Origin: a virus
Reading direction: 5' to 3' (one strand)
IMG/VR virus record: IMGVR_UViG_3300021085_001641
Coordinates: 1-22,676 of that record
Length of the DNA stretch: 22,676 bases
Made by a program: the position numbers and the translations under genes. The notes under the pieces were generated by a model that did not search any database, was not told the DNA's origin, and worked only from the letters and a program-made list of their open reading frames with translations. Below are positions 5,380-22,676 of the stretch, piece after piece (positions within the stretch are counted from its first letter, which is position 1; every line of letters begins with the position of its first letter).

Positions 5380-6119
5380 CACAGCTATTAGTTGATGCTG
5401 ATAGCATGGTGTATAAGTCTTGTTTCAATGTAGTTACTGTTGATGAAGCTTTTAATAAGTTCAAAACAAAACTTAACTACTTGAAAGATGAGATGTGGAC
5501 TGACGATATGGTTATCTTCCTGAAAGGGGTAGAGAACTTTCGTGCAGTAGACTTCCCGTTATACAAGGCTAATCGCCCCAAGGCCGACCCCTCTTCTATC
5601 GTGCCTGAGCTATATGCTATCCTTGAAGAAGAAGAGATTGGGATTCAATCAGATGGTTGCGAAGCGGATGACCTAGTTCGTTCAGCAGCACATGAGTCTC
5701 GCCATAATGAAGACCCTTTTGTTGTTGTTGGTATCGATAAGGATTTATTTTGTGATCCATTTACTTATTATAATCCAGATAAACAAGAACAGTTTGAGTT
5801 AACCCAGAAGGAAGCTGACTTTAATTATTACTCTCAGCTACTTACTGGTGACTCGACAGATAACATTAAGGGTCTCCATAGGGTAGGACCTAAGACAGCT
5901 GCAAAGCTTCTTGAGTCAACTTCCCAATGGAAAGACTTAGTCATTCGAGAATACAAAGAACGATTCGGAAAAGATTATGAAGATGTTTTGACATTCGTCG
6001 GACATTTGATTCACATTAAACGTAATGAAAAAGACTGGTTCAACATTGGCTTCGGTGATTTCTATGACCGAAAGATTGATGTAGATAAGGTCGGAAAGCT
6101 ATTAGGCTATGACATCTAG
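5376..6119 (+). CDS. 5'-3' exonuclease / flap nuclease (FEN/PIN family, T7 gp6-like role)
   Basis: The 247-residue product has the acidic cluster of phage and Pol I-type 5' nucleases: D7/D9 (LLVDADSMVY), the basic YKANRP (63-68) of the helical arch region, E96-A-D98-D99 (CEADDLV), D121-K-D123 (GIDKDLF), and GDSTDNIKG (158-166) leading into the H3TH DNA-binding motif RVGPKTAAKLL. It should remove RNA primers and degrade DNA from 5' ends, as gp6 does in T7. ATG 5376 lies nine bases after AAGGA and overlaps the preceding stop; the in-frame TTG at 5370 is rejected. It neighbours polymerase and helicase genes. Confidence 0.9.
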   Translation: MTQLLVDADSMVYKSCFNVVTVDEAFNKFKTKLNYLKDEMWTDDMVIFLKGVENFRAVDFPLYKANRPKADPSSIVPELYAILEEEEIGIQSDGCEADDLVRSAAHESRHNEDPFVVVGIDKDLFCDPFTYYNPDKQEQFELTQKEADFNYYSQLLTGDSTDNIKGLHRVGPKTAAKLLESTSQWKDLVIREYKERFGKDYEDVLTFVGHLIHIKRNEKDWFNIGFGDFYDRKIDVDKVGKLLGYDI

Positions 6120-6129
6120 GACATTTGAG

Positions 6130-6765
6130 ATGGGTGATTATACATTCATCAGGTATGACCGATTAAAGATTACAGCAACACCGCAACCGAAAGGGGGCGA
6201 TCGTAAGTTGTCTTCTTCGGAAGGTATTATCTGGTGTAAAGAGAGTCTATACAAGTCTCTCGAATTAAAACGTGGGTGGGAAGGGCCATTAACCCTTTGT
6301 ACTCGCGATGGTAAACGCTGGTATGTAGCATTTGAAACATATCAGAAGGACGATTACGTTGTTGACGAAGTTAATGACGGTGATTACGGTCATTGGGAAC
6401 TCCCTAATAAGAATCTAGTTGACCCTCATCATGCTGGTTTTGTTTACGAACTTAAAGATAAAACTACTAATCGTATATATGTAGGCTCAAAGAAATTCTC
6501 TCAACCTGATTGGAAACAATATACAGGTTCTGGAGACTTCTCTGAGTTAACTGTGGACGATGTTGAGGGGCGTATCTTATTTAGTCTCCCCACACCAGGC
6601 CAACTTAATGCGTATGAAATGAGAGAGATATATCTTCGTGATGCACTCTTTCGGGATGACTACGCTAATAAACAAGCTGAGAAACGCATTCGGTCGTCTC
6701 ATCTTGGGCTTGGCTTTGATCATACACGACACTTAGAAATTACTAAAGCGGAGCGATGGCTATGA
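6130..6765 (+). CDS. GIY-YIG (Seg-like) endonuclease with an extra N-terminal domain
   Basis: Residues 103-123 (GFVYELKDKTTNR, IYVGSKKF) match the GIY-YIG core of phage Seg-like nucleases, followed by the characteristic DWKQYTGSG, a catalytic-candidate Glu in NAYEMREIY (E163 or E166), and the closing DDYANKQ...RIRSSHLGLGF with the conserved Asn. Residues 1-100 are an additional beta-rich region I do not recognise. TAGGAC about eight bases upstream favours ATG 6130 (211 aa); ATG 6109 in the same frame would add seven residues and overlap the exonuclease stop. It occupies a place among replication genes where T7 has endonuclease I, so it may degrade host DNA or resolve junctions, or may be a homing nuclease. 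Confidence 0.75.
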   Translation: MGDYTFIRYDRLKITATPQPKGGDRKLSSSEGIIWCKESLYKSLELKRGWEGPLTLCTRDGKRWYVAFETYQKDDYVVDEVNDGDYGHWELPNKNLVDPHHAGFVYELKDKTTNRIYVGSKKFSQPDWKQYTGSGDFSELTVDDVEGRILFSLPTPGQLNAYEMREIYLRDALFRDDYANKQAEKRIRSSHLGLGFDHTRHLEITKAERWL

Positions 6766-6917: not shown

Positions 6918-8520
6918 ATGTGAAAAGTGTGGCTCATCAGATGGCAATGCTGTCTATGATGATAACCACGCATATTGTTATGTGTGTCAACATTATACAC
7001 ACGATATAGGAAAGGAAAATGAAGTGGTATCATTGGCAGTTAATAATTCTGAACGGAATACTAGCCTTCATCGGGCCTCTGGTTTGGCTAGCCGTGGTTG
7101 CCGTGACAGGGGAATTACCAAGACCGTGGCAGAGCATTTCGGCGTTCTTTGTGAGTATGATTCCGACGGTAATATTTGCTCTTATCTCTATCCTTATAAT
7201 CGAGGGTCTGAATTGGTTGCGTACAAGGTACGTGAACTTCCGAAGACTTTCAGCGCGATTGGGGACTTTAAGGGCGTTGGTTTATTTGGTCAAAATGTTT
7301 TCCCTGCGGGTGGCAAACGTATTGTTATTACAGAAGGCGAGTTTGACGCCTTGGCGGTTGCTACTGCGTATGCAGAGAAAGGAACGATCTGGCCAGTAGT
7401 AAGCGTACCTAACGGTGCTACAGCTAAGAAGACTATCTTAGAACAACGAGAGTATCTCCGAAGCTTCGATGAAGTTATCTTTATGTACGATAACGATGAG
7501 GCAGGCCAAGCAGGTCTTGAGGAAGCTGTTAAGATTATTGGTTATGATAAAGCTAAGGTGACTGATTTAGGTAAGTATAAAGATCCTAATGAAGTCCTTA
7601 TGGATGCAGGCGGCGGTGAACTCCTTCGTATGATTTGGAACTCCCGCACTTACACTCCTGCTGGTATTGTTGCTGGAGAGGAAGTATGGAAACAATTAGA
7701 GGAATACAATGAAATTGAATCAATTCCTTATCCTCCTTGTCTTGATGGGCTTAATGATAAGCTTAAAGGGATGCGGCGAGGTGAAATTGCTCTGTGGACA
7801 TCAGGTACAGGCTCAGGGAAATCAACAATTCTCCGTGAGATCGTCGCTCATCTGCATAAAACTACAACCTCAAAGATAGGTATCGTAGCCCTCGAAGAGT
7901 CTCCCGCTGAGACTGCTCGTAAGCTTTCGGGTATGATGCTTAATCGTAATCCAGCTAAAGAAGAGATTCCCCTTGAGGAACTTCGAGTAGGTTTTGATTC
8001 TATCTTAGCTGATGGGCGTATACAAATACTCGACCATAACGGTTCCGTAAGCGGTGATGTCATTAGTCTTATTGAATTCTTATGCGCTTCAGGTTGTGAG
8101 TATATCTTCCTCGATCATATTACTATCTTAGTCTCAGAAGGGGCTGATAGCCTTACTGGTAACGAAGCTATTGATAAGATTATGAATGACCTCAGAGGCA
8201 TCTGTAAGAAGTGGAATGTTTGGATTGGTCTTGTATCTCATCTACGTAAGATGGGCAATGCAGGTCAGTCATTCGAAGATGGTAAGATTGCTTCCCTCGA
8301 CGACATCAAAGGCTCAGGCTCTATTAAGCAAGTATCTTACGATATCATTGCGTTTGCTCGTGATGTTGGTAATGAAGATGAGGATACTCGTAACACTATC
8401 CAAATGAAAGTCCTTAAGAGTCGTTACACAGGTCTTACAGGTCCTTGCGGGGAAGTACGTTACGACTACGATACGGGTCGTTTAAATAAACTTAATGGAG
8501 ATTTCGATGATTTTAATTAA
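6892..8520 (+). CDS. DNA primase-helicase, T7 gp4-like
   Basis: The 542-residue protein starts with a zinc-binding domain (C10/C13 and C29/C32), followed by a TOPRIM primase domain (VITEGEFDALAV at 145-156 with E148 and D152; YDNDEAGQ at 199-206). The C-terminal RecA-like helicase has Walker A SGTGSGKST (304-312, K310), catalytic E335/E336 in ALEES, Walker B LDHI (D408), motif H3 VSHL (H450) and GSGSIKQVS with R490 as candidate arginine finger. It should unwind DNA as a hexamer and prime the lagging strand. The start at 6892 uses AAAGG nine bases upstream; an in-frame ATG at 6838 would lie wholly inside the preceding gene. Length is close to T7 gp4 (566). Confidence 0.93.
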   Translation: MSQELYKTKCEKCGSSDGNAVYDDNHAYCYVCQHYTHDIGKENEVVSLAVNNSERNTSLHRASGLASRGCRDRGITKTVAEHFGVLCEYDSDGNICSYLYPYNRGSELVAYKVRELPKTFSAIGDFKGVGLFGQNVFPAGGKRIVITEGEFDALAVATAYAEKGTIWPVVSVPNGATAKKTILEQREYLRSFDEVIFMYDNDEAGQAGLEEAVKIIGYDKAKVTDLGKYKDPNEVLMDAGGGELLRMIWNSRTYTPAGIVAGEEVWKQLEEYNEIESIPYPPCLDGLNDKLKGMRRGEIALWTSGTGSGKSTILREIVAHLHKTTTSKIGIVALEESPAETARKLSGMMLNRNPAKEEIPLEELRVGFDSILADGRIQILDHNGSVSGDVISLIEFLCASGCEYIFLDHITILVSEGADSLTGNEAIDKIMNDLRGICKKWNVWIGLVSHLRKMGNAGQSFEDGKIASLDDIKGSGSIKQVSYDIIAFARDVGNEDEDTRNTIQMKVLKSRYTGLTGPCGEVRYDYDTGRLNKLNGDFDDFN

Positions 8521-9061
8521 GAATTATCTTGACAAAGAGTTTTGTAAAGGAGTTATTAATTACTGTGAAGAACAAGAACTTCAAGAAGCTTATGTAGGTC
8601 TTGAAAATGAAGGTAAAGTAGACGATAAAATAAGACGTTCTAAAACTTATTTTATTGGATGGCCTTTTTATAATTCCCCTTTCCTTAATGATCTTTATTT
8701 TAATCTCGAAATGAAATTAAAAGAAGCTAATAATATGATGTACGGTTTTAATCTTACTTCTTTCGAACCATTTCAATTTACTAAATACGAATCTGAGGAC
8801 AAAGGTTTTTATGATTGGCATATTGACTCAATGAACGATCGACCTACTAGCGATCGTAAATTATCCTTCTCGGTTTTATTAAATGACTCTTCCGAATTCA
8901 ATGGAGGTCAATTTAAATTCCGTGCGCCATTTAAAGAAAAGCTTTCTCAAGCGGGGGACTTATTAATTTTCCCTTCATTTGAAGAACATTGTGTTAAACC
9001 TGTTACTAAGGGAATTCGTTACAGCCTAGTCGGTTGGATGCGTGGTCCTTTAATGCGATAG
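8507..9061 (+). CDS. 2-oxoglutarate/Fe(II)-dependent oxygenase (prolyl-hydroxylase-like)
   Basis: The 184-residue product carries the iron ligands H105xD107 (YDWHIDSM) and H161 (EEHCVKP), with R171 ten residues later (GIRYSLVGWM) for 2-oxoglutarate binding, spaced as in PKHD-type hydroxylases. The intervening NGGQFKF and AGDLLIFPS are family hallmarks. The substrate (nucleobase, protein or small molecule) cannot be told. Start 8507 lies six bases after GGAG and overlaps the helicase stop. The gene is clearly richer in A+T than its neighbours: three lines I counted (8521, 8641, 8701) have 15-17 G+C in 60, against 24 at 8341 and 32 at 9241, which suggests acquisition by transfer. Confidence 0.85.
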   Translation: MILIKNYLDKEFCKGVINYCEEQELQEAYVGLENEGKVDDKIRRSKTYFIGWPFYNSPFLNDLYFNLEMKLKEANNMMYGFNLTSFEPFQFTKYESEDKGFYDWHIDSMNDRPTSDRKLSFSVLLNDSSEFNGGQFKFRAPFKEKLSQAGDLLIFPSFEEHCVKPVTKGIRYSLVGWMRGPLMR

Positions 9062-9073
9062 AAAGAGATTATT

Positions 9074-9547
9074 ATGAATCAAATAGTTCAGGATATTACT
9101 GTAGCCAGCCAAGCTACTCGGAAGAAATACAAGTATGATACTCTGTATATGCAGATTGCTGAAGCCGTAGCTGATATGTCTGTTGATCCTAAACACAAAG
9201 TTGGGGCTATCATTGTTAAGGATGGTATCTTAGCGGAAGGCTGGAACGGCGCTCCCGCAGGATTCCCTAACCAAACTCGGAATGACGATAACAAAACACA
9301 CCCGTGGATTATCCATGCCGAACAGAATGCATTAGCTAAATGCGCCCGTAAAGGTATTGCCTGCGAAGGCGCTACTATCTTTGTAACACTCGCACCCTGC
9401 CGTGATTGCGCTCGTATGATTATTCAGAGTGGAATTGCAGAAGTTGTTTACAGAGATTCTTTTGAAAAAGACAAAGAAGGGTTGCGTATGCTTGAAAAAG
9501 CAGGTATAATAATTGAGCATTACGCCCGTAAACCATATGTAGGATAG
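9074..9547 (+). CDS. dCMP deaminase
   Basis: The 157-residue protein has the zinc-dependent deaminase signature H81-A-E83 (IHAEQNAL) and P108-C109xxC112 (APCRDCARM), with the nucleotide-binding EGWNGAPAGFP (55-65) characteristic of dCMP deaminases. It converts dCMP to dUMP, feeding dTTP synthesis. No thymidylate synthase lies in this window. It begins behind AAAGAGA and is followed after eight bases by the RNA polymerase gene. Together with the HAD nucleotidase and DUF3310 protein it forms a small nucleotide-metabolism set around the replication genes. Confidence 0.9.
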   Translation: MNQIVQDITVASQATRKKYKYDTLYMQIAEAVADMSVDPKHKVGAIIVKDGILAEGWNGAPAGFPNQTRNDDNKTHPWIIHAEQNALAKCARKGIACEGATIFVTLAPCRDCARMIIQSGIAEVVYRDSFEKDKEGLRMLEKAGIIIEHYARKPYVG

Positions 9548-9555
9548 GACACTAT

Positions 9556-11886
9556 ATGAAAGACATTGTAGACCATTTGAGAGATAAGGTTGAAACTGTT
9601 AATCTAAATAACCCTAAAGCCAATCCAGGCTCTAAATTACTTAAAGATCATGTTCATCGTATCATGGAATTCGTTATGACTTCTTTAGATACTATCGGAA
9701 CACACTACAATAAATATGATGAGGAGTTCCCTTACGGGTACGCTCGTCTTACTACAGTGTCTACTGCTATTGGCCGCGAAGTTTGTCGTCGTATCGGTCT
9801 TGAGTATGGCAGCGAGAAACCTAAAGAGGATTTCCGTAATCATCTTCGTATTGGTGACTGCATTCTCGACTCAATCATAGTAACAGGCTACTCAGATCTC
9901 ATTAGAGGTTCTGAAGAAACTGAAGCGCGTATTGCGTTTATGACTGAGTTAAAGAAGCTTTACCCTGATACCTACAAAGAACACCCTGAGTATAATGTTA
10001 AGCTTCTTAACGTACCTTACGCTCTTAGGGCTACTAATAAGTGGTCATCCCTCAAAGACGAGTTGACTATTGATCGTCGGATTCTTATGGGTACTACTTT
10101 TCTTAAGCCTAAGATGGTTGGTAGTCTCTTTCAGAATACTGAAACAGGCCCTCGAAGTTTAATTAAAGGTTGGGATAAAGAGTATATCAGTTTGTTTAAC
10201 GATAATGATATGCGCTCATCTCCTTTTGTTAAGGGTATTAACACTATCCAACAAACAGCTTGGGGTATTAACCAAGACGTATTAGAAGCTGTTAAACGAC
10301 AATTCAATACTATCTTATACGAAGAAGGTGAGATGCCAGAAGAAGGCGACCCATCAGAAGTTAAGATTGCTTTGTCTAAATTAATTAAAGATGATAACGC
10401 TGAAACACAAGAAGCTTATAACGAAGCTACTCGGAAGTGGAATAAGAAACTCTTAGTCCTCCGCGCTCGTTCTAAGAATTATGCTCTCAAGACTATCTTG
10501 AATAAAGCAGAAGTCATTGGGACCTCTGTGTTCTGGCAGTTTGCTGATTGTGATTATCGTGGTCGTCTTTATTTCTTAGAACCCTACCTCAACTTTCAAG
10601 GTAATGACCTTGCTAGAGGTCTCATGATGTTCGCCGACGGGAAGCCGATCGGGGAGGAAGGTATTAAATGGCTTGCTATCCACACTGCTACCTGTTACAA
10701 TCAGTCTTACGAAATCGATAAGATCCCTGATTGGGTTACGGCAGACTATAAAGGTTATCTAGAGAGCGAAGGGCTTCGGTCTATCTCAGTAGATAAGATG
10801 AGCCTTCAAGATCGCGCTCGTTGGACTTACAATAATCTTGTCCTCATTAATAGCACTGCACAACAAGGTTTAATTCATGGTGAGAAACCGTTTAGCTTCT
10901 TAGCCGCTTGCATAGAGATGATTCATGTACAGAATGACGGAGCAGAACATATTACTTTTCTTCCAATCCCCATTGATGGGTCTAACAACGGTTGGCAACA
11001 CCTTGCTGCCATCTCTAAAGACCAACAGGCGGGTGAACTCGTGTCGCTCGTCGATACTGAAATCCAAAGCGACTTCTACGTTAAGGTCGCAAAGGAACTC
11101 CACAATGTTGTTAAGGAAGAAGAGAACACACGTTTAATTACCCTCATCGAGACAATGCCTATGAGAGATATCCGCAAGGGTATCGCTAAACGTGCGGCTA
11201 TGACTAGAGCATACTCCTGTGGCGCAAAGCGCATGTCTGTGAGCATGTATGCCGACTGCTATAAGGAGGGGTATACAGATAAGTATGGTATCACTATGAT
11301 CGACTGTATTGGTTTATCGCAGTATATCATTAAGGCTATCGATAGGGTTTGCCCTGGTCCTCTAGCTACAATGGCGTTCCTTCAGGAAGCTGCTGTGCAT
11401 CAGGTGGGGTATCGTAAAGAGATTGACGATAAGAATGTTCATCTTCAATGGTGGACTCCCTCAGAGTTCCTAGTGATATACCAACGTAACCGACAAGAAG
11501 CTATTAAGCATCGCGGTCGTATTGCTGGGAAACAGATTAAACACGTTGGTCGAGTAGACACACATGTTCCTGACATTGGTGCTTACATCTCTGGTATCTC
11601 CCCTAACTTTATTCACTCTCAAGACGCTGCGCACTTAATGTTAGTAGCCTCTGATTGGGAAGGTTCTTTCGGGGCTGTACACGATAGCTTCTCTACACAC
11701 GCTTGCGATGTTGATAAGCTTGGACAACTAGTACGTGATTACTTTGTTCGACTATACGATTACGAAAACTTTTTTACTGAAATTAAGGAGGCATTACTGT
11801 CAGAGCCAGAAGGCTTTGAAGCGGAGGTTCCAATCGGATCTCTTAATGTCAATGATGTTTATGATTCAAAATACTTTTTCTGCTAG
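9556..11886 (+). CDS. T7-like single-subunit DNA-directed RNA polymerase
   Basis: The 776-residue protein has every polymerase motif of the T7 family: DCDYRGRLYF (D333 to R337), LNFQGNDLARGL, GKPIGEEG, motif A D474 (PIDGSNNGWQH), motif B K545 and Y553 (KRAAMTRAYSCG), SPNFIHSQDAAHL (682-694) and motif C H709-D710 (AVHDSFSTH). It would transcribe phage genes from its own promoters, which I could not identify. It is ~100 residues shorter than T7 RNAP (883), mostly in the N-terminal part. Two oddities: Lys replaces the motif B Arg four residues before K545, and YS replaces YG after Y553. It lies downstream of replication genes, as in phiKMV-type phages rather than T7. Confidence 0.95.
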   Translation: MKDIVDHLRDKVETVNLNNPKANPGSKLLKDHVHRIMEFVMTSLDTIGTHYNKYDEEFPYGYARLTTVSTAIGREVCRRIGLEYGSEKPKEDFRNHLRIGDCILDSIIVTGYSDLIRGSEETEARIAFMTELKKLYPDTYKEHPEYNVKLLNVPYALRATNKWSSLKDELTIDRRILMGTTFLKPKMVGSLFQNTETGPRSLIKGWDKEYISLFNDNDMRSSPFVKGINTIQQTAWGINQDVLEAVKRQFNTILYEEGEMPEEGDPSEVKIALSKLIKDDNAETQEAYNEATRKWNKKLLVLRARSKNYALKTILNKAEVIGTSVFWQFADCDYRGRLYFLEPYLNFQGNDLARGLMMFADGKPIGEEGIKWLAIHTATCYNQSYEIDKIPDWVTADYKGYLESEGLRSISVDKMSLQDRARWTYNNLVLINSTAQQGLIHGEKPFSFLAACIEMIHVQNDGAEHITFLPIPIDGSNNGWQHLAAISKDQQAGELVSLVDTEIQSDFYVKVAKELHNVVKEEENTRLITLIETMPMRDIRKGIAKRAAMTRAYSCGAKRMSVSMYADCYKEGYTDKYGITMIDCIGLSQYIIKAIDRVCPGPLATMAFLQEAAVHQVGYRKEIDDKNVHLQWWTPSEFLVIYQRNRQEAIKHRGRIAGKQIKHVGRVDTHVPDIGAYISGISPNFIHSQDAAHLMLVASDWEGSFGAVHDSFSTHACDVDKLGQLVRDYFVRLYDYENFFTEIKEALLSEPEGFEAEVPIGSLNVNDVYDSKYFFC

Positions 11887-11893
11887 AGGCGAT

Positions 11894-12142
11894 ATGAAAA
11901 ATTATAATTACCTAGCCCTTCAAGGATGGGAAGTAGATGACATGGAGATTGTAAAGGAATGGGACTTACCCGTAGATGTTGCCTTTACCCCAGAGATTAA
12001 TGCTGCATACTTAGATGCACTCTACAAAAGAACTCTTGAAGACTTTATGAAACTAAAGCCAGACGAGGAATACGCTACTCAAAAGGCTTATGAGATTTAC
12101 CAAGAAACTAAGTGCATGATCGATGCACTGAAGGAAGACTAA
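11894..12142 (+). CDS. Small acidic protein, first of a paralogous pair (82 aa)
   Basis: ATG 11894 follows AGAGGCG; a longer frame from 11735 would overlap the RNA polymerase gene and is rejected. The product begins MKNYNYLALQGWEVDDME and is acidic and helical in its second half (EEYATQKAYEIYQETKCMI). It is clearly related to the protein encoded at 12202-12477: both begin MKNYN, share AL.G.E..D, a VP/VD-x-TP-x-N-x-YLD/VLD segment, and end with EATQKAxE / ATQKAYE followed by an I-x-AL helix. Function unknown. The pair marks the 3' end of the plus-strand cluster. Confidence 0.65.
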   Translation: MKNYNYLALQGWEVDDMEIVKEWDLPVDVAFTPEINAAYLDALYKRTLEDFMKLKPDEEYATQKAYEIYQETKCMIDALKED

Positions 12143-12201: not shown

Positions 12202-12477
12202 ATGAAAAATTACAATGTAGCCGCCCTCCGAGGCGAAGAGATTACTGATGCAGAACATGCTTCGACTATTGGTATTGAAGTACCCGATGATATATTGAAT
12301 ACACCTAAATATAATGACTACGTTCTCGATAAAGTTTATCAAGATAACATTGGTCATCTCCAAACGGAGAATAACCCATTAACTGGTCAACGATATACCT
12401 TCGAAGAAGCTACTCAGAAAGCTGAAGAGTATCGACGCTCTGCTAAAGAAAACATTAATGCCCTTATGAAGGGTTAA
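12202..12477 (+). CDS. Small acidic protein, second of a paralogous pair (91 aa)
   Basis: The product begins MKNYNVAALRGEEITDAEHA and ends in a helical segment (FEEATQKAEEYRRSAKENIN). It aligns along its whole length with the 82-residue protein at 11894-12142, including the N-terminal MKNYN, a central VPDDILNTPKYNDYVLDKVY matching VDVAFTPEINAAYLDALY, and the C-terminal ATQKA. Tandem duplication followed by divergence is the simple explanation. A weak GAGAG precedes the ATG. It is the last plus-strand gene before the terminator. Function unknown. Confidence 0.7.
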   Translation: MKNYNVAALRGEEITDAEHASTIGIEVPDDILNTPKYNDYVLDKVYQDNIGHLQTENNPLTGQRYTFEEATQKAEEYRRSAKENINALMKG

Positions 12478-12527: not shown

Positions 12528-12545
12528 TTATTATTATTATTATTA
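12528..12545. repeat. (TTA)6 trinucleotide repeat containing the stop codon of the 1173-aa gene
   Basis: Six uninterrupted TTA units run from 12528 to 12545. On the minus strand they read TAA six times, the first being the stop codon of the polymerase-like gene and the others in-frame stops behind it. This gives fail-safe termination and also makes the T-rich tail of the plus-strand terminator. Confidence 0.85.
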
Positions 12546-15500
12546 ACCATCAGCGTTAGGGATCATAAACCCTAGGCGCTTTTGTTTTTTAACTGCATCC
12601 ATAACTATGGAGCGGTCTGAGTTAGAGTTAGAGTCATTAGATCGTGTAAATAAAGAAGCACGTTGATTTTTAAAAGCTTTATCATTTAAATAATAACGCC
12701 TAATAAAATTAAGATACTGCTCTTTACTAACAACAAGTACATCATTTTCGCGTGTACGATAGTCTTCATATCCGAGTTCGTCTTTAGCAGCCTCAATGAT
12801 GGCCTCTACTTTTTTAACAAAGTTACCTTGTTTAAGTGAAGGTAGAATAGTGTCATCATCAGGGTTCTTAATACGATTCTCTAAGAAGTCAACTTGTTCA
12901 TCCATGTACTGGAGGAAGCCGTAGAAGTCGCTTCCTTCTTCCATACGGATTTCGTTAGGCATTTCCGCAGCGGCTTGGTTAATAGATTCCGTAAAATCTT
13001 TTTCCATAGCTGCGTGCATATTCCAATCAAGAGCTTTTCGAGTACCTACTTCATTCATAAAGTAAGTGAACATCAAAAGATTTTTGTTCGACATAATAAA
13101 GTTATCATGCACTGGAACAGCATTAGCTGGTTCGCCGATAAGTTCGGTAAGCCCATTATAAGACTCAACGTTAACTACTGTCTCACGGTACTGACCCTTA
13201 ACAGGTCCGACCATATTAGTTACAGCAGTGTAAGCATTGGGAACGTATGTTGTTTTCTTTATTGTTCCATCATCTTGTTTGTCTTTAAATGTCTTTGTAA
13301 CACCGCGAGCCGCAAAGTCTTCTTCACGAGAAACATCCATCAAGTCTAAACCTGTACTAGTCATAAGACCTGATTTACGGGTAACAAGTTTTTGTTTACC
13401 GAAAGGAATAGTCTCCCCAAAGTAACCTATTGGGCGAGGCTTAGTACCTAAAAAGCCCTGAATAAGAGCCATTGCACTTGGTACATTACGCTGCGCTGAG
13501 TCAGTAACTCGAGCCAGGGCATCTTTAAACACCTCAGCCAACACAATAGACGCGCCTTCAGTATCGTAGCCTTCAGCATTAAATGCTTCGAATAGCTCTG
13601 GATACTTACCAAGCAAAGCACGACCAGCATCTTTATGTGCTGAGATAGCTTTACCGTAGTCTGTAACCATGAGAACTTTTTTACCAAAGTCATCTGCGAA
13701 TTTGGGACGAGTTTCTAAAAGGTCACTAACGGTAGCACGAATAGTACCGCCGTGGTTGTATGCACGACCTTCTTTACCTTGAACACTATCGAAGTAATCT
13801 TCGAATACATGTTCCGCTTCGGCTGCGAAGTACGTACGAGGCGTACCATCGGCTAGAAAGTCTAATGTACGAACATCAAAAGAGCCTTCAGTAAACTCTG
13901 AATCATTGCCATAAAAAATACCAGTACGCTTAAGAACTTGTGTCTCACCAATATCCATAGCAAGGAATGTACGACCAGCAGAACGTTGGTCAGCTTCTAG
14001 TAATACAGAATCATTAAGTTGAGACTGATTAACGTAGCTATGTGCCGCCATATAAGCTGAGGTACGCATACCCCAGTTTTTATGATTCAAACTTTTAAAT
14101 ACATCCATAAGTTTTTCTTGACTTTCTGGAGGAAGACCCATAAATGCGTTTGGGACATTAGGAGTCTCGAATATTGTTTTAAGTAAACCACCAATCTCAG
14201 CGTATTGTCTTAGTTTATTCTCAGTAATATCAGCAAGAGTCCTTTCAGGGAGATGCCGACTAGCTGTAGAGCTAAGGGCAGACTCAATAGAGAACAACAA
14301 ATCTAGCTCGTTCATCTCATTTTGAGACAACGATTTGAGAGCTTCTAAGTTACCAACATTAGGAATTTCAGAATCAGAAAGCAATGAAACACTCGGGTCT
14401 CGTCGCTCTAATTTAGTAACAGTAATTAACGGTCGATTAACGAATGTCATAATCTGACGGATATGAGTGTAACTTTGTGGGTTAAAATCATCCGAAACAG
14501 GGTATGCACGATTAACAGAACGGTCTACCTTATAGGGTAAATAACGAGAACGACCATCAGCCGAAATATTTTTCGCATAGTTGATAGTACGCTTTCGAGT
14601 TCTGCGATTAGTCTCTTCCGCATTAAGAGCTTCTGGATCGCCTGCTAAAATCTTATTGCGATCGATATCTAAAAGATTGTCTGCAATAGGTGCAAATTGA
14701 GGATATTGTTCCGCAAAGTTCCCATCCGAAGCTACTAAGTTAATAAAGTTTAAAGCATTCAATCGACGACGATCATATTGAACAGCGACTGAACCTAAAT
14801 TTAGTTTATAATTTTCTAGTGCCTTCGGCAAACGATCTGTAGCACCTTTAGCAAGATCTTGCCCCATAAGTTCTGAACGAGCGCCGACAAAACCTTTTTT
14901 AGAAGCAGGGACTAATTGTGAACGAGTAGGTAATTCATTAGGATCTACACTTAAAAGATAATCTTTAGCACCCATAATCATTCGACGAGATTTAGGCCCA
15001 GCTAAATAAACTTTTACTTTAGGGTTTTTAGTTCTAGGCGCTGTTTGGTCTTCAAGATTTTGACCTTTAGGTAACGGGGTTGTTGTACGGGTTTCTTCAA
15101 TAAGATAACCATTATCAACCAAAGCTTGAGTTATAATTTGACTTGCTTTAAAAGCATTGCTTTCATTATAAGGTACAATAGCCTCTGTAGGCAAACCAAA
15201 TTCATTAAGAGGCGTGGGGTGGACTGTCTCATAAAGAGATTTACCTAACATCGACACAAAAGTATTTGCTTCTACACCACCTTCTTGAAGTGCCTTACTA
15301 GCTTCACCGATCTGTTGATCGATGGGGCTTTCCATAAGACCACCAATATTAAATTCTTCAATAGTATCAAACATACTATTAGCTTCGGAATCAAACTCTT
15401 TTTGTTTAAGAGCCATAACACCGAGACGAGTGAAGCTCATTACACCAGCGTTAAGAACACGGTTGTAATCGGTAGTCCCTAAAAGATCAGCCGCTACTTC

Positions 15501-16064
15501 CATATTAGAAACAGCTAAACCATCTTGTCGGTTTACTCGACCTTCCGAAAGAGATTTAGTAAGAGGAAGACGCATATGGAATAGCGCACCTGTAGCAGTA
15601 GGACGCATACCTTCTTTTGTTATTTGTTTTAGCTCATCTTCTGTTTGAAAATCTACTGGAACAGTCCGATACAAACTCTCAGCGGCCTGTTCTGTTACTT
15701 CTTCTTGGTAACGTTCACGGCCTTGCTCTGTTGGAAGTACTTCACCTTCTTCGGCTTGCATCGTAGTAATATCAGGCATAATACCTGCTACGGGTTCGGC
15801 CCCTGGTACAATACGGCTTTGTTGAGTAGTATCAAGTGTTTGAAAGTTTTGACCACTCAACGCTGCACGTACTGACTCTAAAGGATCTTCTTCTACAGGC
15901 ATTTCAAGAGGAGCAGCAGGCTGTGCAATAGGTAATTGCCTTTCAGCAACAGCCTGTTCTGCTTCCTCTCTCTGTAATAGAAGATCTTCTTCCATTTGTG
16001 ATTGTTGTTCTGGAGTCAAAGCACCCGTGGGAGTAATACTTCCTGGGATATATCTCTTCGCCAT
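12543..16064 (-). CDS. Putative virion-associated single-subunit RNA polymerase (N4 vRNAP-like, divergent)
   Basis: In this 1173-residue protein I see the motifs of T7/N4-type RNA polymerases in order. P510YKVD514, NRAY (R519) and FNPQ (527-530) parallel T7 PYNMDWRGRVY...FNPQ. Motif A is EADQRSAG (D692, G697), matching DGSCSG of T7. Motif B is KKVLMVTDYG with K795 and Y803 eight residues apart, as in T7 K631/Y639. Motif C is VPVHDNFIM (H986-D987). The spacings D692-Y803 (111) and Y803-D987 (184) are near those of T7 (102, 173). The motif B Arg is absent at its usual place. Residues 1-150 are Gln/Glu/Pro-rich. Start: AGAGGAG upstream, TAATG overlap with the ejection-protein gene, implying co-production and packaging. 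If wrong, it is an internal virion protein. Confidence 0.62.
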   Translation of the reverse strand: MAKRYIPGSITPTGALTPEQQSQMEEDLLLQREEAEQAVAERQLPIAQPAAPLEMPVEEDPLESVRAALSGQNFQTLDTTQQSRIVPGAEPVAGIMPDITTMQAEEGEVLPTEQGRERYQEEVTEQAAESLYRTVPVDFQTEDELKQITKEGMRPTATGALFHMRLPLTKSLSEGRVNRQDGLAVSNMEVAADLLGTTDYNRVLNAGVMSFTRLGVMALKQKEFDSEANSMFDTIEEFNIGGLMESPIDQQIGEASKALQEGGVEANTFVSMLGKSLYETVHPTPLNEFGLPTEAIVPYNESNAFKASQIITQALVDNGYLIEETRTTTPLPKGQNLEDQTAPRTKNPKVKVYLAGPKSRRMIMGAKDYLLSVDPNELPTRSQLVPASKKGFVGARSELMGQDLAKGATDRLPKALENYKLNLGSVAVQYDRRRLNALNFINLVASDGNFAEQYPQFAPIADNLLDIDRNKILAGDPEALNAEETNRRTRKRTINYAKNISADGRSRYLPYKVDRSVNRAYPVSDDFNPQSYTHIRQIMTFVNRPLITVTKLERRDPSVSLLSDSEIPNVGNLEALKSLSQNEMNELDLLFSIESALSSTASRHLPERTLADITENKLRQYAEIGGLLKTIFETPNVPNAFMGLPPESQEKLMDVFKSLNHKNWGMRTSAYMAAHSYVNQSQLNDSVLLEADQRSAGRTFLAMDIGETQVLKRTGIFYGNDSEFTEGSFDVRTLDFLADGTPRTYFAAEAEHVFEDYFDSVQGKEGRAYNHGGTIRATVSDLLETRPKFADDFGKKVLMVTDYGKAISAHKDAGRALLGKYPELFEAFNAEGYDTEGASIVLAEVFKDALARVTDSAQRNVPSAMALIQGFLGTKPRPIGYFGETIPFGKQKLVTRKSGLMTSTGLDLMDVSREEDFAARGVTKTFKDKQDDGTIKKTTYVPNAYTAVTNMVGPVKGQYRETVVNVESYNGLTELIGEPANAVPVHDNFIMSNKNLLMFTYFMNEVGTRKALDWNMHAAMEKDFTESINQAAAEMPNEIRMEEGSDFYGFLQYMDEQVDFLENRIKNPDDDTILPSLKQGNFVKKVEAIIEAAKDELGYEDYRTRENDVLVVSKEQYLNFIRRYYLNDKAFKNQRASLFTRSNDSNSNSDRSIVMDAVKKQKRLGFMIPNADG

Positions 16065-19000
16065 TATAAATCTCCTCTGAGAGCTTTGTCTAAATAGTCT
16101 TCAGCTGCGACAGCCCCTTGATGGAGCGGCCCAACTACAGGTAATGATTTAAAGCCTTGTCTAGCGGCTCCTGGGAGATCACCTTCAAGGGCTTTGTTAA
16201 ATGTAGTCCCAATACGAGACATGTATGATATAGCTGGCATTTCGCCTTCAAGGAAATTACCAATAGATTCGGTTGCACCCGTAGAACGTTGCGGATAAAG
16301 AGGATCGAACATGTCGTATATACGTTCACCAGTGCCTAGAAGGCCTGATGCATATACTGCACGTTGGAATTTCTCTTCGTCATCTAACCAATCTGGTGCT
16401 TCACCATACTTAACGATATCCCTAATGTATTGTGCAAGGAAACCAAATGCGATAAGTAAGGCAATTGTTTTAATGCTTTCCGCTCGCGCACCGAGTGTAC
16501 GACCTGCAATTCCCTTATAGATACTTGGGAGAATAGTTGAGGTAAACGAAGCAATGAAACCTTGAAATGATGTTAGCAAAGCTAAGCGAGGATCGTTATA
16601 AAACTTTGGACGATTACCTACACGAGGATGTGCAACTGCTTGTTCAGTAAATTTTACAGAACCTACTAAAATTTCATTTTCAATAGCTTCAGAAATCTCA
16701 GGGCTAACTTGACCTTCGCTACGATAAGCTTCCAGTAGCAAGTCGGTATTAACGTTGACTGCTGCAAGCTCTTCTTTAGCTTCTAAGTACCCAATAGTGT
16801 TGGAATCCATTTCATCAAGGACTTGAATACGTTCTAGCAAGTAATCACCAAAGACACTTAAACGACCTGAACGACTAATATTAGTAAAACCTTGAAGGAA
16901 GATAAGCTTAAAGAAAGCATTCATAAGATTACTCTTACGACCAGAAGTATCATCTACGCCAGCACGTTGCATCGCACTTTGTTGTTGATCGAGATACCCT
17001 GTACTAGCAAGTCGTTCACGACCACCCTTAAGATAGCTCTTACGTTGAGTTAAGCCTGCTTTAGACGACATCTCGTTAATATAGTTAGCCATTTCTAGAC
17101 CAGCTGTTTTAGCTAATGGTGCAATTTGTTTAAACACTTGATCACGTGTTAACAATCGCGGCAACAAACTAAGTTCAACAAGACTTGACAACGTAGCCAA
17201 AGGTAATTGATTTAACGTAGTAAAGAAAATAATATTTTGTTGAGTCTTCCGAAGAAAATCATTTTCAATACGACCATAACGACCACGTTTCATTTCCATA
17301 TAGTCATTAAGCTCAGCCGCAAGGAAGTGCATTTGTTCTTTTGTAACTTTACCATTCTTATGAGCAAGCTTAAGCATACCAGCAATCTTGCGACCACCAG
17401 AACCGAAAAACTTATCGTTAATATTTTTATGTGCGGTAGCTGAATTTAATGCTGCCATATTATAGAAGATATTATTATTAAAGAATTCACTAAAGTCAGG
17501 ATCTTTATGGAGTTCCTTAATACTTAGCATAGGGCCAGTATCAAAGTCACCTTCAAAAGAATTAAGGCTTTTATCCATAGCATCTTCGGGAGTGCTAATA
17601 CTATTAATATCACGGATATCTTCAGCCATAACTTGAGCTTGTTGAGGCGCAACCTTATACTTAGTTACTAACAACTCTTTAAATCCTTGAAAGTTTTTCT
17701 CAAGAGCAGCGCGATCAATTGTTTTGGTATCCATAGTAGTACCTAACTTACGACCAGAAGCCCGATCAAGATTAGCGAGTTTACTTGCGAGGTCAAGAAT
17801 TGGTTTTTGAATGTTATAATATTGATTATCAGTTCTTAGAGATAATTTATTATCAAGAGCTATTTGATGAAGGTCAAGATTGCCTTTAATAGAACCAGCT
17901 TTTTGCAACAAGACTTTTACGAAACGTTGTACTACGGGATCATAAACAATTTTAGATACAGCTGCAGTGCCGTTTACTTTAAGATCTTGTTGAGCTTGCT
18001 CTTCAATAGGGACCATAGAATTTAAAGCGCCCAAACGAAGTTGCAAAGCTACTTCATCATCGGCTCCTGAATTAATATTATTAGCTCCAAGTATAGAGCC
18101 TAAATCACGAAGCTCATCGATATCAATAAATTTATTTAGAGTATTCGACTTGAAACCTTCAAAGAAACCTTTAACGCCTGCATTACGGGCATACCCGATA
18201 GCACTACGAAACAAACCTTTTTGTTGTCGCTGTGCGTATTCTTCTTCACCAAGCTCTGCAAGACTTTGATCTTGGAGATCAAGTGTTTTCTTTTCATACT
18301 CAGTAATAATATCATCTTTACTACGAACACGTTTATATTTAGAACGCTCACGGTCTTGAAAACGAACATCTCGATTGCCTTCATCAGCAGTCTTTTGATG
18401 TTTCCCAATAGAATTCTTAACAGACCCATAATCAATAACAGCACCTGCAGTACCGAATGCACCACCCAAAACACCGCCAGCTACTGCTGCGTTAAGAAGA
18501 CGAGAACGAACTTCATTCTGATCTACCTCTTTCATTTCGCCAGCCATGGCTAAAAGTTCCTGGGCAGATTCAGTTACGCCTTCGCCAAGCATACCAATAC
18601 CAGCGGCCTTACCAATACCTTTAGCAGCATTATTGATAGCAATATCGCTTTCAAGTGCTTTCAAGGTGTCTCTATTAAGACTACGCAAGGCAGTTTGAAA
18701 TGACTTAGCTGTAAGTTCCTCTGCCTCTTCAAGCGGTATATTACGTTTACTAGCAACCTGTTTAGCAACTTTTTGCATTGAAGTTTTAGTTAAAATAGCA
18801 CCAGCTTGGCCGCCAATTTTAACACCAAGAACATCAAGCGCAGCCTGTGCTATGCCAGAGAACAAAGCAGCGGCTTCGTTTTTATTATCTTCAGGTTGTT
18901 CGTTATATACCATACCTGCATATACTGAAGCAGGAGAAACAAGAGAAGCGCCGCCTGTTACTGGTGCGAGTGCCGTAGCGATAATCGTATTAGCCATATA

Positions 19001-19939
19001 AGGAGCAGATTGAGCAGCATTAATCAGCATAAATTCTGTAAAGTCCATAATACTGTTTAATCGCCACTTGCCTTTTTCGTCGAAAGCAGCTTGATTATCA
19101 TTAATTGGAAGAGACTCAATCTCATGCTTTAATCGTTTTTGATGAGCATCACCATAACGACTCATTGAGTCTACGTCAAACATCTCACCAAACATTTCGA
19201 TAGCACCGTAAGCACCTTCGATAACACCAAGTTTACCTAGCTCGAAAGCTGTTCCAATCATACTTCTTGCTTTATTATTAATTGTACGATCAGCTTGACG
19301 GAAAGCTACTCCACTAAACGCATTAGGGCGTTCAGCGTATTCTGCTTCGTTCATAGCAAGAGGCTTGACTTCACCTCGGTTACTGCCTGCATAACGATCT
19401 TCCATAAGCTCAAGGGAAGCTTTATCCCATTCATTAGCAAGACCATTCTGAAGACGTTTACGACGATCAACATTACCAACAATAAAAGCTGTAACATCAT
19501 CCGCCGAAGAATATTCAGTAGGCATGACGAGATTATGATATAATAGTTTTTGTTGTAAGCTTTCGCCTTTATCGTTTTGAAGATCACCTAATAAACGACC
19601 ACCAGTAGCATCTACTTCACCAGAAGAAACTACTTTATTAAAGCCATTATTATTAATAAGCTTTAAAACATTATCGTTAAGTCGTGCGCCGCCATAATCA
19701 CCACGTACAACTCCGCTCCCCGTGTAATGCTCTACTTCTAAAGCATCTACTCCAGGAATTCTAATAGATTGATAATACTCTCCGTCTTCGCCTTTAATAG
19801 GTTGTCCTAAACGAACTGTATCAGGGTCGGTAAGAGTGAGTCCCGTAGCCTCCCCGATAGCGTTACCAGCGTCAATATTAGAGGAAGAGCCAAACAAAGC
19901 TTGTTCAGCCTCCATAAGGAGTTCATTAATATCTGCCAT
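16064..19939 (-). CDS. Large internal virion/ejection protein with SNase-like N-terminal domain
   Basis: This 1291-residue protein carries, at residues 35-145, a pattern like staphylococcal nuclease: TDPDTVRL (D40, cf. DGDT), SIRIPGVDALE (R60, D65, E68, at the exact spacing of SNase R35/D40/E43) and DATGGRLLGDL (R115, cf. R87), then GESLQQKLLYHNLV resembling the family's closing helix. Residues 300-505 hold several Ala/Gly-rich hydrophobic segments (NTIIATALAPVTGGASLV, AAVAGGVLGGAFGTAGAV) and EGVTESAQEL, typical of ejected proteins; further hydrophobic stretches lie at 901-928 and 1155-1172. It probably forms part of the channel or accompanies DNA into the cell. The start has GAGGAAG upstream; the stop overlaps the polymerase-like gene by three bases. 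Confidence 0.7.
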   Translation of the reverse strand: MADINELLMEAEQALFGSSSNIDAGNAIGEATGLTLTDPDTVRLGQPIKGEDGEYYQSIRIPGVDALEVEHYTGSGVVRGDYGGARLNDNVLKLINNNGFNKVVSSGEVDATGGRLLGDLQNDKGESLQQKLLYHNLVMPTEYSSADDVTAFIVGNVDRRKRLQNGLANEWDKASLELMEDRYAGSNRGEVKPLAMNEAEYAERPNAFSGVAFRQADRTINNKARSMIGTAFELGKLGVIEGAYGAIEMFGEMFDVDSMSRYGDAHQKRLKHEIESLPINDNQAAFDEKGKWRLNSIMDFTEFMLINAAQSAPYMANTIIATALAPVTGGASLVSPASVYAGMVYNEQPEDNKNEAAALFSGIAQAALDVLGVKIGGQAGAILTKTSMQKVAKQVASKRNIPLEEAEELTAKSFQTALRSLNRDTLKALESDIAINNAAKGIGKAAGIGMLGEGVTESAQELLAMAGEMKEVDQNEVRSRLLNAAVAGGVLGGAFGTAGAVIDYGSVKNSIGKHQKTADEGNRDVRFQDRERSKYKRVRSKDDIITEYEKKTLDLQDQSLAELGEEEYAQRQQKGLFRSAIGYARNAGVKGFFEGFKSNTLNKFIDIDELRDLGSILGANNINSGADDEVALQLRLGALNSMVPIEEQAQQDLKVNGTAAVSKIVYDPVVQRFVKVLLQKAGSIKGNLDLHQIALDNKLSLRTDNQYYNIQKPILDLASKLANLDRASGRKLGTTMDTKTIDRAALEKNFQGFKELLVTKYKVAPQQAQVMAEDIRDINSISTPEDAMDKSLNSFEGDFDTGPMLSIKELHKDPDFSEFFNNNIFYNMAALNSATAHKNINDKFFGSGGRKIAGMLKLAHKNGKVTKEQMHFLAAELNDYMEMKRGRYGRIENDFLRKTQQNIIFFTTLNQLPLATLSSLVELSLLPRLLTRDQVFKQIAPLAKTAGLEMANYINEMSSKAGLTQRKSYLKGGRERLASTGYLDQQQSAMQRAGVDDTSGRKSNLMNAFFKLIFLQGFTNISRSGRLSVFGDYLLERIQVLDEMDSNTIGYLEAKEELAAVNVNTDLLLEAYRSEGQVSPEISEAIENEILVGSVKFTEQAVAHPRVGNRPKFYNDPRLALLTSFQGFIASFTSTILPSIYKGIAGRTLGARAESIKTIALLIAFGFLAQYIRDIVKYGEAPDWLDDEEKFQRAVYASGLLGTGERIYDMFDPLYPQRSTGATESIGNFLEGEMPAISYMSRIGTTFNKALEGDLPGAARQGFKSLPVVGPLHQGAVAAEDYLDKALRGDL

Positions 19940-19956: not shown

Positions 19957-22676
19957 TTATTTAACATTCATCAGGCCTTTCTTATTAGCCAACATTTTTT
20001 CTAAGAATACAGTAAACGTATTTTCACCTTCGCTAGGTGCGCGAAGACCTAGTGAGTTAAGTTGTTCAGGTGTGAACTGATTGAACACATTGTAAGCGTG
20101 TGATACGCGATCTTCAAAAGACGCATTAACAAAACCAGTATCGCTATTACGACGTTCACGGGCAATATTATTTTTAATTTTACCGAAAACATTAGCGGCT
20201 GCTTTTGGAGTTACGCCTTCAAAGGCATCACCAAGCTCTCTGCGTTGAAGCATTACTCGGTCTACCGCAGTAGACATAGCACCTGGAGCCATGTTAGAAG
20301 CATCACCTTTAAGACCTGTAACAAACTTTTGCATCACAGAAGGAATTAACTGTTGTGCTGCACGGAAATCAGCTGGATCCGAAAGGTCTAAACCAAATTG
20401 ATCAACAACAGCACTAAGCTCTGATGACACATAAGAAACAAGAGTAGGTGAATCACTTACATCAAGACCTGTATCGCTCAATGCAGTACGTAAAGTTGTT
20501 TGCCCATACTCGTCAAGCTTGATTTGATTGCTAATAGCACTTTCACGGCGCTTTTCTAAAGCAGCTAGTTTAGCTTTGTTAAGAGATGCTTCGTCTTTAG
20601 CCTGTTGGCGTTCAAGTAAACGTTCTTCGTCTACCCGTTGTTGTCTTTCTTTTTGACCTGCAACATAGCCCATAGCAGCTTGTCGGGCTGCTACGTCATT
20701 GTCGTAACCAAGAAGTTTGTTTACACCGTAGTATATACCTGCGGTAGCAATTGATTCTGCATCGAATACCTTTTTAAAAGCATTACCAAGACCGCCTTTA
20801 AGCGCCTCAAAAAATTTAGAACTAGTTTTAGACCCAGCAGGAGGTGTTTTGCCATTTTCAGGAGTTTTTATTGTTTTTGGTTTATCAGCAGTAAGAGTTT
20901 TTGTTTCAACAGGTTTTGGGGGCGCAATAGTAATATCCGAACCAGCTACTTTGATAGGTGCAGAAGCTTCGATAGGAACTGTTTCACTACCCATTGGCAC
21001 TTGACTCATACGTCTTGCTAACTCTCTTTGAGCGGTTTGTTGTTCTATTGTGGTTCTGCCGAAATTAGCAATTTCAGATAATTCTGAATCACTAATATCT
21101 GTCATAGTTGCAGGACCACCAGCTGCGGATTGGAAGAAACCTAAGCCTGGGCGATCCGCATATAGTTCTTCTTCAGTAAAACCTTCTGGATTAGTATAAG
21201 AAACATCACCACTACCTTGTTGAAAACCTTGAGGTACTTCTTGCATAGGCATAGGTACTTCCATACCATAGTTAGCCATAGTCTCATCAAGAGCAGCTTG
21301 TTTCATATTAGCGTCAGCTGTATCTTCAAGATGTTTGAGACCAATCTTTTCAATAGTATCGCGGGTACGGTTTTTAGATTTTTGTTCGTAACCCATTTGT
21401 TTAACCGCTAGCTTTTCCATCTGATCCATAGCAGGATCTTTCGGGGGAGCCATCATCATCATACTAGGTACTTCCATAACACCTCCTGCAAAGCCTTGTA
21501 GCGATTGTTCACCGCCACCATACTTACCTGTTAAATTTCGTTTATGATATGCATCTAATTCTGCATCATCGTACATTACTGCTTCTTTTCCGTTTACAGG
21601 AATACCATTAGCTTCCGCCATGCGATTCTTAGCTCGACCTTCATCAATCATTTTTTCAATGACAGGAATATTCTGAGGGTCTTGAGCAGCTGCAGCGGGA
21701 ATAACCGCTTCCCCTGGAGTAAGCATAGCTGGAACAGTATCGCTTGGACCTGCTTCAGGATTAGTAGGGGTTGACTGTGCTGAATCAAGAACAACACGAC
21801 CTTGAGATTGCGCTCTCATAGCGTCTGTAGGAGACATCATAGGTACTTCCTCTTGGGGTTGTTCTAGTGTTTCTACGGGTGGGACATCAGAAGCTTCAGC
21901 CGACATTCCAAAGAAATCTTTAATACTGTCAAAGAAAGAAGGTTCTTCTTTTTCTTCTTCAGGGACATTAAAAGAAACTTCATCTTCTTCGATTTCTTGT
22001 TTAGAGTACGAGCCAGCTTTGCCTCGCCGTTCATCTTCTAAAGCTTTCCGAAGAGTCCCTGGTCCAATAATTCCATCATCTTCGACACCAAGTTCTTGTT
22101 GAACTGCTTTAGCACCTTGCGTACCGCCGCCGTTAGCGTTATAAATCTGTTGAAGATTTTCAGGAAGAAAATCAATTACCGTTGCGCCTTCAATTCTATC
22201 ATTATCAATATATTGTTCAAAAACTTTTGGAATAGATTTCCCTAGTACTTTACGACCATGAATAAAATTAAGTAGTTCAGCGGCTCTAGGATTGGCTTTA
22301 AGTTCTTCAGGGGTCGGCATATTTTCTTTGCCAAAGGATTTTTCAATAATTTCCGCATATCGAAATAAAGCTTGTACACCTGCAAGTGAACCCATTAAAC
22401 TTTGAGAAGCACCTTTTAAATCATTATTTTTTAAAGAATCTCTTAAAGCACTAAATTGATTAATACCGCCGCCACCAACATTATATGCTAAAGACACTGT
22501 TGCCGTTTGAACTTGGGGTGAAAGATTATTAAAATCTTCACCTATAAAATTTTGAGCATCAGGTATAGCGGTAGCTTTAATATATTGAATCATTTTAGCT
22601 TTAGCTTCTTCTTTAGTCACAGTAGGGTTGCCAAGATCTTTACGAGCTTGTGCTACGCCTTCGTCACTTACAGGAT
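19957..22676 (-). CDS. Virion protein with GH24-type lysozyme region and peptidoglycan-binding motif (5' end missing)
   Basis: The frame is open through the right edge of the window, so the GTG at 22620 is internal and at least 905 residues are encoded. The start of the visible part (VTKEEAKAKMIQYI, then LSPQVQTATVSLAYNVGGGG and FSALRDSLKNND) matches the second half of phage T4-type lysozymes; the catalytic Glu would lie upstream. AVQQELGVEDDGIIGPGTL (near 22030-22150) is a peptidoglycan-binding repeat. DTVPAMLTPGEAVIPAAAA resembles a motif common in phage tail and internal proteins. A Met/Pro-rich linker and a charged coiled coil (QKERQQRVDEERLLERQQ) follow. It likely digests the cell wall during DNA entry, like T7 gp16 in role, though with a different enzyme fold. 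Confidence 0.75.
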   Translation of the reverse strand, partial: PVSDEGVAQARKDLGNPTVTKEEAKAKMIQYIKATAIPDAQNFIGEDFNNLSPQVQTATVSLAYNVGGGGINQFSALRDSLKNNDLKGASQSLMGSLAGVQALFRYAEIIEKSFGKENMPTPEELKANPRAAELLNFIHGRKVLGKSIPKVFEQYIDNDRIEGATVIDFLPENLQQIYNANGGGTQGAKAVQQELGVEDDGIIGPGTLRKALEDERRGKAGSYSKQEIEEDEVSFNVPEEEKEEPSFFDSIKDFFGMSAEASDVPPVETLEQPQEEVPMMSPTDAMRAQSQGRVVLDSAQSTPTNPEAGPSDTVPAMLTPGEAVIPAAAAQDPQNIPVIEKMIDEGRAKNRMAEANGIPVNGKEAVMYDDAELDAYHKRNLTGKYGGGEQSLQGFAGGVMEVPSMMMMAPPKDPAMDQMEKLAVKQMGYEQKSKNRTRDTIEKIGLKHLEDTADANMKQAALDETMANYGMEVPMPMQEVPQGFQQGSGDVSYTNPEGFTEEELYADRPGLGFFQSAAGGPATMTDISDSELSEIANFGRTTIEQQTAQRELARRMSQVPMGSETVPIEASAPIKVAGSDITIAPPKPVETKTLTADKPKTIKTPENGKTPPAGSKTSSKFFEALKGGLGNAFKKVFDAESIATAGIYYGVNKLLGYDNDVAARQAAMGYVAGQKERQQRVDEERLLERQQAKDEASLNKAKLAALEKRRESAISNQIKLDEYGQTTLRTALSDTGLDVSDSPTLVSYVSSELSAVVDQFGLDLSDPADFRAAQQLIPSVMQKFVTGLKGDASNMAPGAMSTAVDRVMLQRRELGDAFEGVTPKAAANVFGKIKNNIARERRNSDTGFVNASFEDRVSHAYNVFNQFTPEQLNSLGLRAPSEGENTFTVFLEKMLANKKGLMNVK

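Follow-up and report, generated by a model that had tools for sequence, protein, structure and literature searches.

The window analysed here is an entire virus record of the IMG/VR type (22,676 bases) and encodes a protein of 1,291 residues for which an original prediction had proposed a staphylococcal nuclease (SNase)-like domain at the front of an ejected virion protein. The locus raises the questions of whether this protein really bears an SNase domain, whether such a domain could be catalytically active, and what a nuclease would do on a protein of this kind. The features of the locus that bear on these questions are summarized in Table 1.

Table 1. Features of the gene for the 1,291-residue protein and of its neighbours in the window
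Feature	Position	Strand	Basis
1,291-residue protein, SNase domain and long helical, probably gp16-like ejection protein	16064..19939	minus	ORF list
SNase domain, residues 24-160	19460..19870	minus	VIA-align, Foldseek, family profile
D38, counterpart of SNase D19	19826..19828	minus	profile alignment; invariant in 77 of 77
D40, counterpart of SNase D21	19820..19822	minus	profile alignment; invariant in 77 of 77
R60, counterpart of SNase R35	19760..19762	minus	profile alignment; invariant in 77 of 77
D65, counterpart of SNase D40, variable in the family	19745..19747	minus	77-sequence column count
E68, counterpart of SNase E43	19736..19738	minus	profile alignment; invariant in 77 of 77
R115, counterpart of SNase R87	19595..19597	minus	profile alignment; invariant in 77 of 77
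Segment weakly resembling gp16-type ejectosome core proteins in structure, about residues 577-1107	16619..18211	minus	VIA-align
Upstream neighbouring ORF, 905 residues, open at start	19957..22674	minus	ORF list
Lysozyme-like region of the 905-residue upstream ORF, residues 18-93	22396-22623	minus	Pfam, PHROG
Next ORF of the same operon, 1,173 residues, without recognised domain	12543..16064	minus	ORF list, Pfam, PHROG

Identity of the N-terminal domain

The motif D38-P-D40-T41 and the residues R60, D65, E68 and R115 were all present where the original prediction had placed them, as was the stretch G125-E-S-L-x-x-K-L-L-x-x-N-L, and in a 27-row profile alignment the named catalytic residues fell on D19/D21, R35, D40, E43 and R87 of SNase. 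The fold, the catalytic positions and the order of the motifs (DxDT, R-x4-D-x2-E and GR) were shared with the staphylococcal nuclease/thermonuclease family (PF00565, COG1525), from which the window domain differs in being fused to a helical protein of more than 1,000 residues and in belonging to a group in which the equivalent of SNase D40 is often replaced. The span first proposed for the domain (19505-19850, about residues 30-145) placed it correctly but was narrower than the structural match given in Table 1.

When searched as a single sequence, the window protein gave no SNase match in Pfam, PDB, NCBIfam or PADLOC, and none to PF00565 even at E-values up to 10. The PF00565 cut-off was reached by no marine member scanned, the best being L049 with 13.9 bits against the required 21, and the domain was therefore filed as a divergent SNase-fold family rather than as a PF00565 match. 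The reading of the letters had thus recognised what single-sequence searches miss. Weak labels returned for the protein (DUF1002, bacHORMA_1, Peripla_BP_2, sorcin and designed helical proteins) were judged to be chance matches.

Relatives were gathered from one IMG/VR contig and from gp34 of Roseobacter phage CRP-7, and the set was extended by three more scans, three others yielding no contig that was not yet in the set. When the 27-row family profile was compared with 177,635 PDB sequences, staphylococcal nuclease came first (E 0.001), the match spanning profile positions 9-119 of 123, and all of the best 60 of the 108 PDB profile matches were to this enzyme. A comparison by hhalign with eight annotated nuclease-family proteins, seven plasmid-borne and one phage-borne, gave a probability of 97.7 and an E-value of 1.3e-12. 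The member closest to ordinary thermonucleases, L049, retrieved by tblastn alphaproteobacterial plasmid genes that are mostly annotated as 'thermonuclease family protein' (best E 3e-3, with 21 records reaching an E-value of 1 or lower).

Two other nuclease genes were noted in passing. On Pukyongiella plasmid p1 (NZ_CP043619.1, L057:399-827), a thermonuclease-family gene lies between traW and traU within an F-type conjugation cluster and is another SNase adjoining a DNA transfer channel. In Arthrobacter phage Abba, gp27 (MT024868.1, L061:550-912) is a small SNase-type nuclease gene flanked by those for the holin and lysin A.

A structural model of residues 1-185 was built by AlphaFold2 with 13 rows (pLDDT 74.6, pTM 0.74). 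Foldseek against the PDB returned staphylococcal nuclease as all 50 matches listed (best E 1.3e-4, probability 1.00), and VIA-align superposed model residues 24-160 onto residues 6-137 of the SNase chain with a Z value of 10.8, an rmsd of 3.3 and 122 residues aligned; Z was 8 or more in 310 of 998 chains. The structure prediction that had been suggested as a check thus yielded an OB-type SNase fold. Among predicted viral proteins, the best structural match was to a protein of 1,368 residues, the same length as CRP-7 gp34, and some of the other matches were named micrococcal nuclease homologs. By name and structural match, A0A6J5NQ80 of an uncultured phage is likewise a long protein (1,342 residues) having the same fold (E 1.1e-3); it has already been named automatically as 'Staphylococcal nuclease (SNase-like), OB-fold', and we found no study of it in the literature searched. 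The family profile, the fold match and the profile-profile comparison were in agreement on an SNase-like domain at the front of the protein, and we regard this domain as almost certainly genuine.

Conservation of the active site and spread of the domain

The same architecture and gene order, with a T7-like RNA polymerase nearby, were found for CRP-7 gp34 (QBQ72827, hypothetical protein), in which 43% of the window protein could be aligned at 26% identity. This protein keeps the equivalents of SNase D21, R35, D40, E43 and R87, having DAGE where the window protein has DALE. The term 'nuclease' is absent from the available part of the CRP-7 paper (PMC6918029). An SNase domain also stands ahead of a homologous body in gene0066 of Aeromonas phage phiA008 (2,050 residues, hypothetical protein), in which residues 1745-1909 and 114-416 were aligned by blastp to window protein residues 986-1142 (E 4e-8) and 190-499 (E 5e-4), respectively. 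This protein is longer than the window protein and its domain is much nearer to ordinary thermonucleases; its residues 28-113 passed PF00565 (35.4 bits, cut-off 21, E 1.6e-8), and thus an SNase recognised by the standard model fronts a homologous protein in a named phage.

Column conservation was assessed on a domain set of 83 rows, from which five second contig copies and one identical core were removed. The resulting 77 distinct sequences formed 32 clusters at 60% identity and had a median pairwise identity of 32%. Six of the 106 well-filled columns never varied (D38, D40, R60, E68, R115 and G125), and five of these six were the SNase active-site positions D19, D21, R35, E43 and R87; under random placement, the probability that D21, R35, E43 and R87 would all lie within the six is 3e-6. 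The catalytic roles of individual SNase residues are known, and we take D40 of the window protein (SNase D21) to be a metal ligand and E68 (SNase E43) to be the general base. Judging from these columns, the catalytic set is under strong selection.

The original prediction had also considered that the activity might be reduced, because the residue following the equivalent of SNase D40 is Ala66 in place of a usual Thr. Ala was, however, the majority state at this position, being present in 63 of the 77 family members and in five of the eight nuclease-family proteins aligned. The doubt over Ala66 is weakened accordingly, and we rejected this residue as a cause of a weakened active site.

The equivalent of SNase D40 itself (residue 65) was variable, being D in 40, S in 15, N in 13, E in 7, T in 1 and Q in 1 of the 77 sequences, so that Asp was not kept in 37 of them. 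On a FastTree phylogeny computed from the rest of the protein, which carried long-branch warnings and placed the window on a long branch, this position changed at least 12 times. An oxygen in the side chain is common to all residue types found there and would be in keeping with a relaxed metal ligand; nothing usable on D40 mutants was found in the literature searched. The lack of this Asp in nearly half of the family would fit a binding module, in which the OB-fold would hold on to DNA or to a partner protein and catalyse little or nothing. Plain binding, however, would not require the equivalents of D21, R35, E43 and R87 to remain invariant among sequences so diverged, and the side-chain oxygen is retained at D40 in every case; we thus consider a binding module to be quite improbable. 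The conserved residues argue instead for a working Ca2+-dependent nuclease, which we regard as the probable nature of the domain. That the spacing of the motifs is accidental and the domain is not an SNase, as might be supposed from a window protein without any single-sequence database match, can be dismissed in view of the family profile, Foldseek, VIA-align, hhalign, the PF00565 score of the phiA008 protein and the column conservation.

The spread of the domain was assessed by a single scan with a 130-residue query from the far C-terminus, in which the best 80 of 136 relatives were taken as ranked by likeness to L001, itself a bearer of the SNase domain. Thirteen of the 80 ended short of the N-terminus and were left out, and six of the 67 remaining relatives with a whole N side (L065, L073, L077, L135, L136 and L142) were already known from the domain searches. 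The SNase domain was found in the same frame in 66 of these 67, with 3.7e-20 as the weakest E-value. L126 differed from the other 66 in that the domain lies in frame just upstream (before position 1869) with a single in-frame stop between, which is either genuine or an assembly error. Since the scan favours likeness to L001, the resulting count of 67 of 67 holds for the neighbourhood of L001. The same SNase-front arrangement recurs in many ocean viruses.

Among 30 records of outer homologs, three N-termini were examined, those of Pseudomonas phage tf, Vibrio phage vB_VpP_BA6 and Pseudomonas phage phiR18, and none of the three carried the SNase domain. The proteins of tf and vB_VpP_BA6, which belong to PHROG 6958, are homologous to the window protein in the body and lack the domain; in both, the homology begins past the SNase domain, in the tf protein at its residue 49, which corresponds to L011 residue 230. 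The SNase domain is thus a module fronting a wider protein family, and its absence from three homologs of cultured phages indicates that it is not required for ejection as such.

The body of the protein and its gene neighbourhood

Residues 845-1211 of the window protein matched PHROG 6958, a virion structural protein (E 2.6e-22), of which the tf protein is a full-length member, and homologs are annotated as virion or particle proteins. The tf protein, tf_51, is annotated as similar to gp50 of LUZ24, a phage whose virions were studied by mass spectrometry (PMC3517423, available in part). A structural model of residues 186-1291 was almost entirely helical (pLDDT 66.8); Foldseek gave no match for this helical body, and sequence profiles of the body compared with solved structures gave no match to T7 proteins. 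By VIA-align, the four best of 973 chains were all phage ejectosome core proteins with low Z values, namely those of PhiM1 (8vb2_A, Z 7.0, 269 residues aligned), T7 (9jyy_I, Z 5.7, 236 aligned; 7eyb_I, Z 5.3, 203 aligned) and E1004 (9vvp_L, Z 4.3, 230 aligned), while the next-ranked, unrelated rows had about 38 residues aligned. Like the window protein, T7 gp16 and the core proteins of PhiM1 and E1004 are large and helical and bear an N-terminal enzyme head, the likeness of the bodies being weak. Because the Z values are low, we call the gp16-likeness probable rather than shown.

Of the claim that the domain lies at the front of an ejected virion protein, therefore, the SNase part stood firmly, and the ejection part held to a moderate degree, on the low-Z gp16 matches, the late-gene order, a neighbouring peptidoglycan hydrolase and the virion annotations. 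The homology to virion proteins suggests that the window protein would be present in the virion and ejected from it, and we consider it likely to be a gp16-like ejection protein.

Wall-cutting functions were found in the adjoining genes. The 905-residue ORF upstream matched Phage_lysozyme of Pfam at E 9e-4 with 20 bits, below the cut-off of 22.3, and an endolysin of PHROG at E 8.3e-6. In four of the seven relatives tested, the gene before the SNase protein encodes a peptidoglycan hydrolase, which is of the lysozyme type in L006 and L037, of the SLT type in L043 and pesticin-like in CRP-7; none was found in L001, L011 and L049. Whereas the head of T7 gp16 is a transglycosylase, the window protein thus has an SNase head, and the hydrolase resides in the neighbouring ORF. 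A large ORF after the SNase-protein gene was also present in the relatives examined.

A different arrangement was observed in L020, an IMG/VR contig, in which a 1,576-residue protein (L020:2234-6961) has a lysozyme-like domain fused ahead of the SNase domain. The lysozyme-like domain scored 19.2 bits with Phage_lysozyme of Pfam (cut-off 22.3), and residues 34-179 matched PHROG 37474, a family of unknown function; both putative entry enzymes are here on a single polypeptide. Compared with polyvalent proteins, which carry at least two disparate effector domains within a single injected polypeptide, the window protein shows one enzymatic domain and the L020 protein two, lysozyme-like and SNase.

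Several other genes of the window were recorded. A SegE-type GIY-YIG endonuclease gene (6109-6765; PF19835, E 3.4e-9) lies between exonuclease and primase-helicase genes, and a gene for a 2OG-Fe(II) oxygenase (8495-9061, E 1.1e-15) adjoins that of a dCMP/cytidine-type deaminase (9074-9547, E 2.6e-24). The small neighbouring ORFs at 11735-12142 (later part) and 12202-12477 resemble each other over one stretch (MKNYN..AL.G.E..D), as would be expected of tandem paralogs. No match was obtained when the window was scanned for tRNAs and against Rfam.

Possible roles of the nuclease at genome entry

According to the available part of PMC8954989, residues 1-156 of T7 gp16 bear the transglycosylase and make up wings of the periplasmic tunnel, the C-terminal part of gp16 is presumed to reach the cytoplasm, and enzyme domains are exchanged among ejection proteins. 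By analogy, the SNase head would take the place that the transglycosylase has in T7 gp16, would exit the capsid with the ejectosome and would end at the periplasmic side of the DNA conduit, like the N-terminal part of gp16; if the topology resembles that of T7, the conduit would be surrounded in the periplasm by several nuclease heads. The phage genome would be sheathed within the tube, out of reach of the nuclease, and DNA or RNA outside the tube could be cleaved, be it misdelivered DNA, the DNA of another phage or host nucleic acid at the envelope.

One difficulty of this arrangement concerns the virion. In active T4 packaged with SNase, the addition of calcium led to digestion of the DNA (PMC3012670, available in part). 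Since such T4 heads lose their DNA, a calcium-activated nuclease beside packaged DNA is a danger and counts against the arrangement described above, and the natural nuclease would have to be shielded, folded late, inhibited or switched on by ejection. The passage of large ejection proteins through the conduit is believed to take place in an at least partly unfolded state (PMC8402733, available in part), and refolding after ejection could thus activate the nuclease. The weak likeness to gp16, the scores of the window sequence by itself, which stay below every SNase model, the loss of the D40 equivalent in 37 sequences and the three SNase-less homologs also count against the reading as a whole. 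We therefore put forward only tentatively, at somewhat less than an even chance, that the virus is a marine podovirus whose T7 gp16-like ejection protein bears an active Ca2+-dependent SNase head facing the periplasm. Action in the periplasm, rather than in the cytoplasm or the capsid, is on the T7 analogy itself a possibility falling a little short of even.

Free calcium is low in the cytoplasm, and SNase enzymes have no sequence specificity. Both properties bear on where else the enzyme might act. The SNase could enter with the ejected protein and cut host DNA or RNA as a take-over factor, in the sense of the polyvalent proteins. The conserved catalytic residues are compatible with such a cytoplasmic effector, and phages are well known to inject enzymes that target the nucleic acid or machinery of the host (PMC5512222, available in part). 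By analogy with T7 gp16, however, the N-terminal head would stay in the periplasm (PMC8954989, available in part), the low free calcium of the cytoplasm would ill suit an SNase, and the incoming phage DNA would be exposed to it there; we consider this role rather unlikely. Alternatively, the domain might process the genome of the phage itself by nicking, trimming or releasing the DNA end, either during packaging or when ejection begins. Ejection proteins are located close to the portal and, in P22, can occupy the same space as DNA (PMC8402733, available in part). An enzyme without sequence specificity would be poorly suited to this purpose, and three homologous ejection proteins of cultured phages dispense with the domain, so that we assign only a low probability to this role.

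We found no description of an SNase on an ejection protein in the literature searched. SNase is not mentioned in the available part of the main text of a survey on injected proteins with several domains (PMC5512222), and, in the parts available, PMC12629253 concerns other phages and PMC3482391 has no bearing on an SNase-bearing ejection protein. SNase domains and enzyme-bearing ejection proteins are known separately; what is new is their union and the keeping of the active-site residues across a group of marine phages.

Wall-cutting enzymes are known from the injection proteins of short-tailed phages, and a nuclease at this place would mean that virion space is spent on cutting nucleic acid at entry. 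Seawater is rich in calcium, and the arrangement raises the question of how a phage can pack a calcium-activated nuclease beside its own DNA while adrift in it. The finding also suggests a function for the still-hypothetical proteins of the cultured phages CRP-7 and phiA008. In its fullest form, which we regard as rather unlikely in all its parts together, a broad group of ocean podoviruses would place a ring of Ca2+-dependent nuclease heads outside the conduit; silent or shielded in the capsid and active in the calcium-rich periplasm, these heads would destroy nucleic acid outside the tube, so that the first phage would exclude DNA arriving later while its own genome would be protected by geometry.
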